Shown piece by piece: positions 8,664 to 13,899 of a stretch of 64,000 bases of DNA. The DNA lies in contig NC_017098.1 in the NCBI RefSeq assembly GCF_000242595.2, positions 3,086,501-3,150,500 on the forward strand. Reading direction: 5' to 3'. The notes beneath the pieces were generated by a model, which searched no databases, had not been told where the DNA came from, and saw nothing but the letters and a program-made list of their open reading frames with translations. The stretch is from Spirochaeta africana DSM 8902. Its GTDB lineage: Bacteria; Spirochaetota; Spirochaetia; DSM-27196; DSM-8902. Position numbers and translations under genes: made by a program. Every line of letters begins with the position of its first letter. The stretch's first letter is position 1.

Positions 8664-9932
8664 ATGCAACTGCGAGACATAGTAACCCCACTGATAATCC
8701 TGCCCGCTGCTGCGGTGCTGAGCTGGGTATTTCCCCAGTATAACACGGCCTTTATCCAGGTCGGGCTGCAGTTCGTTGCCCTGCTGTTTTTTCTTGCCGG
8801 CATTCTGCTCAGCATCCTCTATCACCGGGGACGGGTGCTGGCCGCCCTGATGCTCATGCTGCTCACCGCGGCTGCTTTCGCCTCTCCCGTAGTTTTGTTG
8901 CTGGAACCGTATCAAACCACTATGGTGTACCGTTTGCTGCAGCTGAGCATGCCGCTGCTGCTGTGCGTTATTGCGATATCACCACGGCGGCGCATCCTGG
9001 ATCCGGCAAGCCTGGTCTGGCTCGCCAGCATCGCGCTGCTGGTCTTCGCGGTCTGGGCTGTGCCGAACACCGAGCAGGCACCCCGGCTGCTGCAGCCGCT
9101 GTTCACCCTCCAGCTCCTGCCCTTCCTGCCGCCGCAGCTGCTGCCCCAGGCCCTGCCGCAAATCAGCATCGCCATGGCCCTGTTCGGCCTGCTGTGCGTC
9201 ATTCTGGTCGAGTCGACCTATCACCGGGATCCCTCGCTGTCACTGGCCTGGATCTGCGCCTACGCTGCGGTCTGTCTGGCACTGATAACCCTGGAAACCC
9301 CGGCCCGGGCGATACTGTGGTTTACCGCCGCCGGTGCGGTGCTGGCTGTAGGGCTGATTCAGCATGCCCATCGCATGGCGTTTATCGATGCCCTGACCCG
9401 CATACCCAATCGCCGTGCTCTCGATGAACAGCTCTCCAGGCTGCGATCACGCTATGCCATCGCCATGGTAGATATCGATCACTTCAAGGCCTTCAACGAC
9501 ACCCACGGCCATAAAATGGGCGACCAGGCACTGCGAAAAACTGCCTCCCATCTGCGCGAGGTTGACGGCGGCGGCAAGGTTTTCCGATACGGCGGGGAGG
9601 AATTCACTATCCTGTTTCCGGGTAAAACTGCCCGGGAGGCTGGTCGCCACTGCCAGGCGCTGCGTGAGCGCATAGCCGGTGAGCCATTCTTCTTTCGCGG
9701 CAGCAACCGGCCGCGAAAACTGCGCAAAGCCGAGAAGCATCGCCGCCGCCCGACCCGAAAACGCGAGGCCAGTGACAGTCTGCAAATCACCGTAAGCATC
9801 GGGGTGGCGGCACAAGGCGACCGGGCCTCTACCTCGGCCCGGGTACTGCAGCTTGCTGACCAGGCCCTCTACCATGCAAAGAAAAACGGCCGTAATCGGG
9901 TCATAGTTGCCCGGGACGACGCTCCCAGATAA
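8664..9932 (+). CDS. Membrane-bound GGDEF diguanylate cyclase (SiaD-position gene)
   Basis: A 422-residue protein. Residues 1-240 hold several hydrophobic helices of an integral-membrane sensor with no recognised ligand motif. The GGDEF domain starts near 250 (DALTRIPNRRAL), has the metal and substrate motifs MVDIDHFKAFNDTHGHKMGDQ and an active-site GGEEF near 310. The product would be c-di-GMP. A candidate inhibitory-site motif, REVD, lies 8 residues before GGEEF where 5 is usual, so product inhibition may be missing. A lysine/arginine-rich insertion (about 346-372) interrupts the last part of the domain. It heads the kinase-phosphoprotein-cyclase-phosphatase cluster and takes the role SiaD has in Pseudomonas. 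Confidence 0.85.
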   Translation: MQLRDIVTPLIILPAAAVLSWVFPQYNTAFIQVGLQFVALLFFLAGILLSILYHRGRVLAALMLMLLTAAAFASPVVLLLEPYQTTMVYRLLQLSMPLLLCVIAISPRRRILDPASLVWLASIALLVFAVWAVPNTEQAPRLLQPLFTLQLLPFLPPQLLPQALPQISIAMALFGLLCVILVESTYHRDPSLSLAWICAYAAVCLALITLETPARAILWFTAAGAVLAVGLIQHAHRMAFIDALTRIPNRRALDEQLSRLRSRYAIAMVDIDHFKAFNDTHGHKMGDQALRKTASHLREVDGGGKVFRYGGEEFTILFPGKTAREAGRHCQALRERIAGEPFFFRGSNRPRKLRKAEKHRRRPTRKREASDSLQITVSIGVAAQGDRASTSARVLQLADQALYHAKKNGRNRVIVARDDAPR

Positions 9933-9945
9933 TTGCTTCCAGGAC

Positions 9946-9974
9946 TTGCAGGTTACCCTGCGGTGACCTACCTT
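9946..9974 (+). promoter_or_regulatory. Promoter of the siaB-like gene, probably leaderless
   Basis: TTGCAG (9946-9951), 17-base spacer, TACCTT (9969-9974), 6 bases, ATG at 9981; no ribosome-binding site. It would let the rest of the module be expressed independently of the diguanylate cyclase. Confidence 0.45.
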
Positions 9975-9980
9975 TATTAC

Positions 9981-10523
9981 ATGATAGAGAAACAATTACC
10001 CCAGCTGAATCACCTGTTGGGCGAGAACCGCATCCTCTTCTGCTTTAGCGGTCCGTTTCACCAGGAACTGATAGAGGAACTCGGCCGCGCCATCCAGGGG
10101 TATGTGCGCCAGTCGGACGAGCCCAGTGCCAATCAGCAGCTTGCGTTTCGGAACATCTTTGCCGTCTTTATCGAACAAAGCCAGAACATCAAACGCTATC
10201 TGGAATCGCTGGCAGACCCGGCAGCAGAACGCTCAGGCATTGTGGTGATTGGCAGGGATAACAACCAGTTCTTTGTGGAATCCGGCAACAAGGTTCGTCG
10301 CGATCATGTGCCGGAACTGAGGTCCAGGCTGGAACAGCTGCAACACCTGGACAAGGAAGCCCTTAAGCGGTTGTACAAGGAAACCATCCGCAGTGAACGG
10401 ACTGATGCCAGCGCCGGCCTGGGCTTTATTGATATGGCTCGCAAGGCGGCCGCCCCCCTGGATTTCAGCTTCACCCCTGTCGATGAGCAGTTTGAATTCT
10501 TCTCGCTCAGCGTAACCCTTTAA
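9981..10523 (+). CDS. siaB: SiaB-family protein kinase (DUF6272)
   Basis: A 180-residue cytosolic protein matching the SiaB family, GHKL-fold serine/threonine kinases related to anti-sigma-factor kinases such as SpoIIAB. An N-box-like segment (FIEQSQNIKRYLESL, about 60-75), a G1-like strand (GIVVIGRDNNQFFVESGN) and a G2-like GLGFIDMARKAA (about 148-159) are visible. In Pseudomonas aeruginosa SiaB phosphorylates SiaC; a SiaC-like gene follows 18 bp downstream. ATG at 9981 is chosen by the promoter spacing; GTG at 9963 is in frame but lies in that promoter. Confidence 0.8.
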   Translation: MIEKQLPQLNHLLGENRILFCFSGPFHQELIEELGRAIQGYVRQSDEPSANQQLAFRNIFAVFIEQSQNIKRYLESLADPAAERSGIVVIGRDNNQFFVESGNKVRRDHVPELRSRLEQLQHLDKEALKRLYKETIRSERTDASAGLGFIDMARKAAAPLDFSFTPVDEQFEFFSLSVTL

Positions 10524-10541
10524 CCGTATGGAGGCATATCT

Positions 10542-10922
10542 GTGGAAGCATTGCATATAGAACCAACGAAATCATCCCCCGAGATCACCTTTGATCCGGG
10601 AAGTGGAATCCTGCGCATCCAGGGGCAGTCCTATCCCGAGAATTCCTTCCAGTTTTTCGAGCCTGTCTTCGCCTGGCTGCAGCAGTATCTGGCTCAGCTC
10701 GCGGGGCCCTGTACCGTCCAGTTGAATCTCGATTATCTGAACACCTCCTCCTCGAAGTGTCTGATGGATTTTATCGATCTGATGGAAGATGCCTATAGCG
10801 AAGGCAAGCAAGTCAGGATAGAATGGCTGTACGATCCGGACAACGACAGCTCGATTGAACTCGCCGAGGAGTTCAAGGAGGATCTGTCGCTGCCGTTTGA
10901 CATCCTGAAACTCGAGGAGTAA
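10542..10922 (+). CDS. siaC: SiaC-family regulatory phosphoprotein (DUF1987)
   Basis: A 126-residue protein covering the whole DUF1987 domain (IEPTKSSPEITFD, SYPENSFQFFEPV, LDYLNTSSSKCLMDFIDLME, ELAEEFKEDLSLPFDI). The fold is related to SpoIIAA/STAS-like antagonists. Thr68, in YLNTSSSK, coincides in number and context with the Thr68 that is phosphorylated in P. aeruginosa SiaC. Unphosphorylated SiaC binds and activates the diguanylate cyclase SiaD there; the same switch is inferred here. Start is GTG with GGAGG 7 bases upstream. Confidence 0.88.
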   Translation: MEALHIEPTKSSPEITFDPGSGILRIQGQSYPENSFQFFEPVFAWLQQYLAQLAGPCTVQLNLDYLNTSSSKCLMDFIDLMEDAYSEGKQVRIEWLYDPDNDSSIELAEEFKEDLSLPFDILKLEE

Positions 10923-10927
10923 CCGCT

Positions 10928-11824
10928 GTGCCGGAATCCGGGTTTGAATCAGAAGAGCGCAGCCTGGAGCGTGCGCTTGCGTACCTTGCCTCTCTGGAGA
11001 ACGACGGCCAGGATCAAACCTCCTGCTCGGCAGAGCTGCGTGCCATTACCCAACAGTACCGGAAACTCCTGCGGCAGAGCCGCAAACTGATGCGTATCAG
11101 CGACCGGCTGCAGTTGCAGCTGTCCGAGGCAAACGATGCCCTGCGACTGGAGAACGAGAAACGCCGCAACCTGCAGACCATTATCCGTCAGTATATCCCG
11201 CGCAACACCTGGCAAAAAGCCGACCTTAACTCCCAGACCGCCTCGCTGGAGATCCCGAACGAAGAGGTGCAGCGCTCCTGTATGTTCCTGGACGTAGTCG
11301 ATTTTACCCGTTTCAGCGAAAGTCGGCCGCCCGAAGAGGTAATACACGCCCTGAATGCGGTCTTTCGCCCGGTAGTCGGCATGATTCTGGACAGCGGCGG
11401 AGACATCGACAAGTTTATCGGGGACTCGATCTTTGCCGTGTTTCAGGAGACACGCACCTCATTGATCAATGCTATCCGTATACAGCATATGGTTAACCGG
11501 ATGCAGTTTCTTTCGCTGCGCATCGGGATCCACGCCGGCAGGGTAATCATCGGAAATGTCGGGGGCGCCGCCCGTAAGGACAATACCTATATGGGCGACA
11601 ATGTAAACATTTCGGCGCGACTGCAAACCCATGCCCTGCCCGGAGGAATCATGATCTCCAGGGACGCCCTCAACGATGCCCAGCTGCAGCATGAACTGCC
11701 GGAACTGTATTCTCTGCCCAGAACCCCGCTGTTCGTACGTGGCCGCGAGCAGCCAATCGAAATAATCCAGATCGACCCCAAGGTAATTCAGGTAATTGCC
11801 GAGCATCAGTTTCCGGAGGAATAA
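10928..11824 (+). CDS. Class III nucleotide cyclase with N-terminal coiled coil
   Basis: A 298-residue protein. Residues about 35-85 are a predicted coiled coil; about 117-270 form a class III cyclase domain. Both metal-binding Asp are present (FLDVVDFTRFS and FIGDSIFAVF), as are the adenine-selecting Lys of DKFIGD and the transition-state Asn/Arg of NVNISARL, so adenylate cyclase activity is favoured over guanylate cyclase. No membrane segment is seen. GTG start 5 bp after siaC with GAGGAG upstream; its stop overlaps the next start by one base (TAATG). Tight packing says it works with the Sia-like switch. Confidence 0.86.
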   Translation: MPESGFESEERSLERALAYLASLENDGQDQTSCSAELRAITQQYRKLLRQSRKLMRISDRLQLQLSEANDALRLENEKRRNLQTIIRQYIPRNTWQKADLNSQTASLEIPNEEVQRSCMFLDVVDFTRFSESRPPEEVIHALNAVFRPVVGMILDSGGDIDKFIGDSIFAVFQETRTSLINAIRIQHMVNRMQFLSLRIGIHAGRVIIGNVGGAARKDNTYMGDNVNISARLQTHALPGGIMISRDALNDAQLQHELPELYSLPRTPLFVRGREQPIEIIQIDPKVIQVIAEHQFPEE

Positions 11825-13899
11825 TGGCCATGACGCTGCGCAATCTGACCGTATTAGCCGTACTCGCCCTGCTGCTGCCAACCGGCTGCAGCTTTACCGA
11901 GGCTCCCTATGCGGTAGCAGGCCGGCTTGATGCCGCTGACTGGCATCCCGAGCGGGACGGACTGCTCGACCTCCGCGGCGAATGGGAGTTTCACTGGCTC
12001 CAGCATATCGACCCTACCCGGCCATCCCCACCAGGATTCCGCCATGTGCCACAGCCGCAGCTGTGGAATGATCTTGAACTCCCGGAGGGCCCGTTGCCGG
12101 CCGAGGGGTTCGCCTCTTTCCGGCTGCAGGTGGCCCTGGATGAAGAGTGGCCCGAAATTATTGGCATCCGGGTCATGGAAATGAGCACCGCCTTCCGGCT
12201 TTACATCAACGGAACCCTGGTGAGTCAGGCCGGTACCGCGGCCACAACCCCGGAGGCCACCGAGGCCCGGCTGGTGCCCCAGACCAATGTCTTTCATCGC
12301 CACCACGCCGAGGTTCTGGACATCGTGCTGCACGTGTCGAACTTTATCGACCGCGAAGGGGGGCGGCGACGTTCATTGTATATCGGCAGCGAACAGCAGA
12401 TCCACCGTACCCAGCACCGGGCTATTGCCTTTGAAGGGATCCTGACCGGGGCTTTACTGTTGATCGGCCTGTATCATGTAGTGCTGTTTTCGTTCCGGCG
12501 CAAGGAGCCCCTGCCGCTGGTATTTGCTCTGGTATGTGCGGTATTTGCCCTGCGCGGGGTTTTTGAAGGCGAGCGACTGATCCTGATGATGTTTGATCTC
12601 CCGTTCGAACTGTACGGCAAGCTTTGGTTCATCCTGTACTATGTCCTGGCGCCGGTGGTAATGCTGTTTCTGCATTATCTCTTCCCGCGAGAGTCCTGGC
12701 CATGGCTGCTGAAGACCGTGCTGTCGGTTATGGCCGCATTCTGCCTGGCCACCCTGGTGCTCCCGCTCTCGGCGGCTATCAGGATCATGCCGTTTTTTCA
12801 CCCGATCACCCTTGTTTCCATGCTGTATGCGGTTCGTGTACTGGCACTGGCGATTCTGCACGACCGGCCAGGCAGCAGGGTATTCACCCTTGGTATGGCA
12901 ATTCTGATCGCTACCGGGATCCATGATCTGCTGTACACCGAAAACATCATAGAATCGACATATCTGGCTCCCGCCGGCCTGCTGGCCTTTGTGTTCAGTC
13001 AAGCCTATTTTATCGCGGCACGCTTTTCCAACTCCCTAACACGTGTTCAGGGGCTGTCCGAACAGCTGCGGGCCTATTCACTCGAACTGGAGGACAAGGT
13101 TGCCCTGCGCACCCGTGAGCTGGAACAGCGCAATCGCGCCATTATGGAAAGCATAGAGTATGCCCAGCTTATCCAGTCATCGGTGCTGCCATCCCCTGCC
13201 GAACTGCAGGAGCTTATCCCGCATCATTTTGTTATCTGGAGGCCGCGCGACCTGGTGGGTGGAGATTTCTACTGGAGCCGGGCACTGGGGAAATCACGCG
13301 GCTGGATTGCCGTAGGTGACTGCACCGGGCACGGTGTACCCGGTGCACTCATGGCGATGATGGCAACCAGTCTGCTGAATCGCGAAGCCCACCTGCTTGA
13401 ACCGGACAACCCGGCAGCATTCCTCCATGAACTGAATCTGGCGGTGCGCGAATCACTACATCAGGACATGCATGACGGCAAGGCTCACGAAGGGTTTGAC
13501 ATGATCCTGGCCTATCTGGAGCCCGGCAGATTAACCGCTGCCGGAGCGCATCTCGGGCTGTATACCCTCCAGGACGACGGCCCTGCCTATTTCCCTGGCT
13601 CGCGCAAGGGGATCGGGTATGTGGAGCCCTCCTCCGACTTCCGCTACGAAAACTTCTCGATTGCGCTGCAGCCGGGGGATCATGTGTACATGATGAGTGA
13701 CGGGTTACTTGATCAGAGCGGCGGCGAGAAGGGGTTTGCGTTCGGGCGCCGTCGTTTGCTGAAACTGCTGGAGGAGCTGCACCAGCATCCCTTTGCCGAA
13801 CACAGCCAACGGCTTGATCAGGCCGTCAAGGAGTATGCCAATGGAGAAGCCCAGCGGGACGACATCGTGGTTGTCGGATTTTCCACAGAAACCGGCTGA
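11824..13899 (+). CDS. siaA: 7TM sensor with SpoIIE/PP2C phosphatase domain (SiaA-like)
   Basis: A 691-residue receptor. After an N-terminal signal (with a Cys near residue 20 in a poor lipobox, LLPTGC) comes an extracytoplasmic domain resembling 7TMR-DISM extracellular jelly-roll domains (about 35-195; LRGEWEFHW, FRLYINGTLVSQAG). Seven helices follow (about 205-410), then a coiled coil (about 415-455) and a SpoIIE-type phosphatase (about 465-690) with metal motifs VGGDFYWS, VGDCTGHGVPGALMA, MMSDGLLDQ and QRDDIVVVGF. SiaA of Pseudomonas dephosphorylates SiaC but carries a different sensor. The inferred job is to turn on SiaC when the outer domain, possibly carbohydrate-binding, is engaged. 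Confidence 0.85.
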   Translation: MAMTLRNLTVLAVLALLLPTGCSFTEAPYAVAGRLDAADWHPERDGLLDLRGEWEFHWLQHIDPTRPSPPGFRHVPQPQLWNDLELPEGPLPAEGFASFRLQVALDEEWPEIIGIRVMEMSTAFRLYINGTLVSQAGTAATTPEATEARLVPQTNVFHRHHAEVLDIVLHVSNFIDREGGRRRSLYIGSEQQIHRTQHRAIAFEGILTGALLLIGLYHVVLFSFRRKEPLPLVFALVCAVFALRGVFEGERLILMMFDLPFELYGKLWFILYYVLAPVVMLFLHYLFPRESWPWLLKTVLSVMAAFCLATLVLPLSAAIRIMPFFHPITLVSMLYAVRVLALAILHDRPGSRVFTLGMAILIATGIHDLLYTENIIESTYLAPAGLLAFVFSQAYFIAARFSNSLTRVQGLSEQLRAYSLELEDKVALRTRELEQRNRAIMESIEYAQLIQSSVLPSPAELQELIPHHFVIWRPRDLVGGDFYWSRALGKSRGWIAVGDCTGHGVPGALMAMMATSLLNREAHLLEPDNPAAFLHELNLAVRESLHQDMHDGKAHEGFDMILAYLEPGRLTAAGAHLGLYTLQDDGPAYFPGSRKGIGYVEPSSDFRYENFSIALQPGDHVYMMSDGLLDQSGGEKGFAFGRRRLLKLLEELHQHPFAEHSQRLDQAVKEYANGEAQRDDIVVVGFSTETG

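Follow-up and report, generated by a model that had tools for sequence, protein, structure and literature searches.

A SiaABC phospho-switch in Spirochaeta africana that probably controls a class III cyclase through a SiaD-type stalk

Introduction

Which enzyme answers to the phosphoprotein SiaC when two different cyclases are encoded beside it? The question is raised by five plus-strand genes of Spirochaeta africana DSM 8902, here called gene 1, siaB, siaC, gene 4 and gene 5 (Table 1). They lie in a window of 64,000 nucleotides (the whole stretch of DNA analysed), which covers positions 3,086,501-3,150,500 of a single-contig genome of 3,285,855 bases. Inspection of its open reading frames (ORFs) finds them near where a sequence-only reading of this DNA had placed them. 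That reading took gene 1, a membrane protein with a GGDEF domain, for the SiaC target SiaD. The present analysis gives a probability of about 0.74 to the view that these genes encode a SiaABC phospho-switch with cyclic AMP (cAMP) synthesis by gene 4, a predicted adenylate cyclase, as its output.

The SiaD of Pseudomonas aeruginosa has a helical stalk with two repeated motifs, and SiaC activates the enzyme by binding to them (PMC8457831). Residue T68 of SiaC inserts between SiaD stalks and hydrogen-bonds SiaD S82 and Q86, and the parallel dimers stabilised via the stalk activate the enzyme (PMC8457831). The S. africana locus resembles SiaABCD in having a SiaA-type PP2C phosphatase, SiaB, a SiaC with Thr68 and a stalk-bearing cyclase gene directly 3′ of siaC. 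It differs in that the effector is a class III (predicted adenylate) cyclase and not a GGDEF protein, in that one docking motif is present where SiaD has two, and in its gene order of B-C-effector-A with an extra diguanylate cyclase upstream. The SiaA input is a 7TM-DISM receptor, whereas P. aeruginosa has a sensor with two transmembrane (TM) helices.

The SiaD-type stalk of gene 4

SiaABC appears to drive gene 4 because this gene carries the helix that SiaC grips. The NCBI model of SiaD (NF038266) aligns its stalk, model positions 54-93, with residues 36-75 of gene 4 (E 1.3e-4). A 26-residue position-specific scoring matrix (PSSM), built only from 46 proteobacterial SiaD stalks, scores gene 4 at 30.4 bits, a value reached by 0 of 1000 shuffles (shuffle maximum 16.3). 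The segment KLMRISDRLQ corresponds to the proximal of the two SiaC sites on Pseudomonas SiaD and retains the Ser and Gln that contact Thr68 there. Judged by the contact residues listed in PMC8457831, 7 of 13 SiaD-side contacts are identical in gene 4 (K53, R56, I57, S58, D59, R60 and Q62), as are 10 of 14 SiaC-side contacts between the local and the Pseudomonas SiaC. A profile of 16 stalk modules without SiaD rows has SiaD (7e6g) as its top PDB match (2e-4). AlphaFold without an alignment models residues 31-89 as one helix, with a predicted local distance difference test (pLDDT) score of ~83-85 over residues 41-70. The stalk is exclusive to gene 4, a genome scan with the motif giving no further site at E<=10.

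Elsewhere the stalk is linked to the SiaC effector. A GGDEF gene adjoins siaC in 78 of 80 other SiaC loci, and all of these score at least 34.9 bits on the stalk PSSM, many of them having served as its training rows. Of the two remaining loci, L050 has a class III cyclase with the stalk and L059 a histidine kinase. Another 35 GGDEF proteins encoded at the same SiaC loci score 5.1 at most; the motif therefore singles out the effector rather than GGDEF proteins in general.

The catalytic domain of gene 4

Class III cyclases use two metal-binding Asp residues, a Lys and an Asp or Thr as adenine pair, and an Asn/Arg pair in the transition state. An alignment of gene 4 retains all of these (D122, D166, K162, T220, N227 and R231), which together make up the adenylate set of class IIIb that bicarbonate-responsive cyclases also have. 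Gene 4 is accordingly predicted to make cAMP. Its catalytic domain and Lys/Thr adenine-specificity pair resemble those of the class IIIb adenylate cyclases CyaC and photoactivated OaPAC, but its regulation would run via a SiaC-docking stalk instead of PAS, GAF or BLUF domains. The protein consists of the stalk and a PF00211 domain and has no GGDEF domain, so it is not a SiaD, though it is expected to work like one. The genome has 11 class III cyclase matches, gene 4 counted, and 14 cyclic nucleotide-binding matches, which provide candidate cAMP readers. A phylogeny of these class III domains was too poorly resolved to date their recruitment, and only the split between K/D and K/T residue pairs was used from that comparison.

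SiaB, SiaC and the SiaA-type phosphatase

Family models and solved structures bear out the claim of the sequence-only reading that a SiaA/SiaB/SiaC phospho-switch is encoded here. SiaC, a single-copy gene in the genome, reaches 153.2 bits against the equivalog model NF038265 (cut-off 150). It aligns without gaps to the Pseudomonas SiaC of 6kko and 7e6g (2e-31), which places Thr68 in register with the known phosphosite, as had been proposed. This residue lies within YLNTSS and is encoded at 10743-10745. Of 47 SiaC sequences, 35 have Thr and 12 have Ser at position 68, with Ser in L169 and L171 from the same taxonomic order, so that the phosphosite is nowhere lost among close relatives or in the wider set; the flanking N67 and S69 are invariant (47 of 47). 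SiaB, whose gene adjoins siaC, scores 174 bits against NF038262 (cut-off 85) and matches 6kko_A at 2.3e-26.

Gene 5 contains a 7TMR-DISM_7TM domain (PF07695, residues 203-400, 2.6e-20, 73.6 bits against a cut-off of 29) and a SpoIIE domain (PF07228, residues 492-685, 1e-23). Residues 409-687 match the SiaA model NF038263 at 4.5e-68, and the closest solved structure of the phosphatase domain is SiaA-PP2C 6k4e (1.1e-49). The equivalents of the SiaA metal-site residues D457, D474, D600 and D653 are kept, and gene 5 has all the catalytic aspartates that PMC7647112 lists for SiaA. In its receptor architecture gene 5 is like other 7TM-DISM receptors fused to SpoIIE phosphatases, from which it differs in that its PP2C falls in the SiaA group and is linked to siaBC. 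A jelly-roll fold of the N-domain is plausible and unconfirmed: a Pfam scan gave no significant match and the AlphaFold model of gene 5 has a pLDDT of 40. In the related 7TM-DISM SiaA of L130 the N-domain matches a GH2 sugar-binding (GH2_N-like) domain at 2.7e-4. Overall, a phospho-switch of SiaB, SiaC and a SiaA-type PP2C is well supported by these comparisons, and by homology it would act on Thr68.

Proposed mechanism and alternatives

A signal arriving at the 7TM-DISM receptor part of gene 5 would control its SiaA-like PP2C phosphatase, which would take the phosphate off Thr68 of SiaC, to be restored by SiaB. Unphosphorylated SiaC would dock on the gene 4 stalk with Thr68 inserted at Ser58/Gln62 and clamp two stalks together in a parallel coiled coil. 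This would favour the catalytic dimer, on which class III cyclases depend, and with it the predicted cAMP synthesis, while phosphorylation of SiaC would block docking and turn gene 4 off. Because gene 4 has one docking motif and SiaD two, a 2:2 rather than a 2:4 complex is expected. The steps upstream of the stalk are proposed by homology to demonstrated chemistry; from there on, we infer the docking of SiaC on gene 4, the direction of control, activation through the dimer and the cAMP product.

Several observations weigh against this mechanism. The single docking motif is one of them, and within it L61 and Q64 stand in place of SiaD Y85 and M88. Residues 1-101 of gene 4 taken alone have SiaD as best PDB match at a non-significant E of 0.7. 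The single-sequence AlphaFold model of gene 4 is confident for the stalk only and informative for residues 1-80. The adenine-specific residue set predicts cAMP and falls short of proof.

The wiring could also be as proposed with another sign or product, SiaC inhibiting gene 4 or gene 4 making cGMP. A docking motif alone leaves the sign unfixed, and class III domains include guanylate cyclases. This version is nevertheless unlikely, as K162/T220 is the adenylate-type pair and stalk-stabilised parallel dimers activate SiaD (PMC8457831). At the other extreme, the stalk match might reflect a generic coiled coil in an enzyme unrelated to the switch, given that AlphaFold makes the region helical and that the profile of the stalk module gives some weak matches in other coiled coils. 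This is hardly credible when shuffles and the 35 non-effector GGDEFs score near zero and 15 of the 16 spirochaete genomes with a strong module match bear SiaC (genomes that largely supplied the profile), the exception having its module beside a SiaBC-like pair. As a candidate explanation, the generic coiled coil was rejected on the shuffles, the scan of the genome itself and the non-effector GGDEF control.

Two further alternatives involve gene 1. It lies upstream on the same strand, has a GGDEF domain and could be what SiaC activates, as SiaD is activated in P. aeruginosa, the class III cyclase being an extra; among Proteobacteria, almost all SiaC effectors are GGDEF proteins. However, NF038266 matches gene 1 in its GGDEF part only (114 bits against a cut-off of 290). 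The stalk PSSM gives -3.9 bits, a score equalled by 389 of 1000 shuffles, and so finds no docking stalk. By sequence, only a short linker separates the last TM helix from the GGDEF domain, leaving no room for one; all 78 siaC-adjacent GGDEF genes of the comparison loci have the stalk. Nor is the N-terminal part conserved with SiaABC: a match to its 272 residues occurs in 4 of 387 spirochaete genomes, the three besides S. africana lacking SiaC. Direct activation of gene 1 is therefore improbable. Gene 1 was rejected as a SiaD for its lack of a stalk and of conservation with SiaABC; its likeness to SiaD is confined to the catalytic domain.

Control of both cyclases, gene 4 directly and gene 1 indirectly or through some other contact, would yield cAMP together with cyclic di-GMP (c-di-GMP) and fits the tight packing of all five genes on one strand. 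It is distinctly unlikely in view of the missing SiaC-docking site on gene 1 and the inverted repeat between gene 1 and siaB, and none of the other loci examined pairs SiaABC with a diguanylate cyclase of this type. On the preferred reading, with gene 4 as the effector, gene 1 is probably an accessory neighbour that SiaC does not grip, although its co-transcription with the siaABC genes is possible. A GGDEF gene beside siaABC thus need not be the effector, which is a correction to annotation.

The stalk as a possible portable module

SiaC matches occur in 25 of 393 sampled spirochaete genomes (5 of 46 within the taxonomic order of the window), and class III cyclases lie directly 3′ of siaC in six other spirochaete genomes. 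The stalk is borne at SiaC loci by class III cyclases (L118, L119, L120, L121, L122, L123 and L124), GGDEF proteins (L130, L132, L135, L136, L139, L169 and L171), histidine kinases (L125, L133, L137, L138 and L141) and a second PP2C (L126 and L134). In Proteobacteria, the class III cyclase of L050 has a diverged stalk and PAS-histidine kinases of L059 and L105 carry one. The refuting case of siaBC lying consistently apart from phosphatases and cyclases did not occur: as a rule, genes for a phosphatase and for an effector with the stalk accompany siaBC.

At a threshold of 1e-4, a search of 387 spirochaete genomes with the module profile picked out 16, of which 15 have SiaC; since the profile was largely built from the same SiaC-bearing genomes, its informative part is the absence of the module elsewhere. 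Outside the profile, GAF-class III cyclases with the stalk are encoded unlinked to siaC (L207:2443-4074 and L208:3658-5283). Both genomes have siaC elsewhere, and in one (G179) siaC is found also unlinked to siaB. The stalk is also present at L209:2239-4067, on a protein of HD_5 (HD-GYP-like) type that faces a pair of the slr1658/slr1659 superfamily. This pair is a distant SiaB/SiaC-like couple, which suggests that the receiver module reaches beyond true SiaC; here it possibly controls a phosphodiesterase.

Outputs appear to have been swapped repeatedly, as class III effectors are scattered over a tree of SiaB and SiaC from 45 loci. Effector types change at least 10 times among four types, and class III against the rest at least 5 times, the exact count being soft because several rows are long-branched. 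A single clade of class III loci is rejected by the approximately unbiased (AU) test (p 1e-87, or 7.6e-6 without L050). L050 is nested in the proteobacterial GGDEF group (support of the enclosing group 100/99), and L169 and L171 of the window's taxonomic order have GGDEF effectors.

Inputs vary likewise. SiaA proteins beside siaBC carry dCache/HAMP, PDC, SBP_bac_3, protein kinase-AAA-GAF or CBS domains, and L130 combines a 7TM-DISM SiaA like that of the window with a GGDEF effector. The sensors are interchangeable, so the 7TM-DISM input, from which the sequence-only reading had concluded that the signal must differ, does not account for the novelty of the locus. The SiaA of L119, L120 and L121 is ~1770 residues long; in L119, the one scanned, Ser/Thr protein kinase, AAA and GAF domains precede the PP2C.

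Taken together, the analysis leans towards SiaABC as a general-purpose switch, with an N-terminal stalk module of ~70-90 residues that was transferred repeatedly to diguanylate cyclases, class III adenylate cyclases, PP2C phosphatases, histidine kinases and, in the case of a distant SiaBC-like pair, to an HD-domain protein. Phosphoproteins of one kind could then act on cAMP, c-di-GMP, His-Asp relays or a further tier of phosphatase, and the input would come from exchangeable SiaA sensors. If the stalk is such a portable receiver, a short motif would predict the enzyme controlled by each SiaABC cluster across phyla. Ser/Thr phosphorylation would then act directly on cAMP signalling and on two-component systems, and the stalk would be a natural plug-in part with which switchable enzymes could be built.

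Relation to other partner switches

For stressosome modules with varied outputs, PMC4976288 cites Pane-Farre 2005. Like the RsbRST stressosome, the SiaABC loci combine STAS protein, kinase and PP2C in a partner switch that feeds different output enzymes; the STAS and kinase families differ, and there is no stressosome core here. To our knowledge, the SiaD-type stalk is not known in RsbRST modules. RsbRST modules are one partner switch with varied outputs, including a diguanylate cyclase (Moorella MtT-MtG; PMC4976288). Given this precedent for a multi-output switch, the principle is known and the SiaABC instance is new. The open-licence literature yielded no report of SiaC with an effector other than SiaD, nor of a link between SiaC, SiaB or DUF1987 and an adenylate cyclase.

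Gene order, boundaries and minor features

The five-gene order, whose recurrence in other spirochaetes had been suggested as a check, was not found elsewhere, because gene 1 stands outside the conserved set; the order B-C-effector-A does recur, in Nitrincola (L052). Gaps from gene 1 to gene 5 are about 48, 18, 5 and -1 nt. The siaB ORF can open from TTG 9933 or ATG 9981, and the ATG is probably the start. The inverted repeat ahead of it, noted in a consensus scan only, might act as an operator or as a terminator/attenuator of low strength.

Table 1. Features of the siaABC locus (positions in the window)
Feature	Position	Strand	Evidence or residues
Gene 1: multi-TM membrane diguanylate cyclase (GGEEF)	8664-9932	+	PF00990 1.3e-33
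8-bp inverted repeat, gene 1/siaB gap (possible)	9950-9969	+	AGGTTACC-n4-GGTGACCT; consensus scan only
siaB: GHKL-like serine/threonine kinase of SiaC	9981-10523	+	NF038262 1.9e-51, PF19788 2.7e-40
siaC: STAS-like phosphoprotein	10542-10922	+	NF038265 equivalog 3e-45, PF09345 4.4e-44
Gene 4: class III (predicted adenylate) cyclase with N-terminal SiaD-type stalk	10928-11824	+	PF00211 2.1e-16
Predicted SiaC-binding stalk motif, gene 4 residues 47-72 (LLRQSRKLMRISDRLQLQLSEANDAL)	11066-11143	+	PSSM, inside predicted helix 31-89
Class III cyclase homology domain, gene 4	11276-11743	+	D122, D166, K162, T220, N227, R231
Gene 5, siaA-like: signal peptide/N-domain, 7TM-DISM receptor, SpoIIE/PP2C phosphatase	11824-13899	+	PF07695, PF07228, NF038263

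The GGDEF domain of gene 1 has a basic insertion (RPRKLRKAEKHRRRPTRKREAS). The spacing from a possible RxxD to GGEEF departs from that of a typical I-site, and the enzyme may therefore lack product inhibition.

Among the comparison loci, siaC of L128, L129 and L131 is without SiaB or SiaA neighbours and lies beside an ankyrin-repeat membrane protein or a cNMP-binding/patatin protein. L139 has two back-to-back SiaA-SiaB-SiaC sets, one with an SBP_bac_3 and the other with a dCache sensor, and a single stalk-GGDEF effector was found between them.

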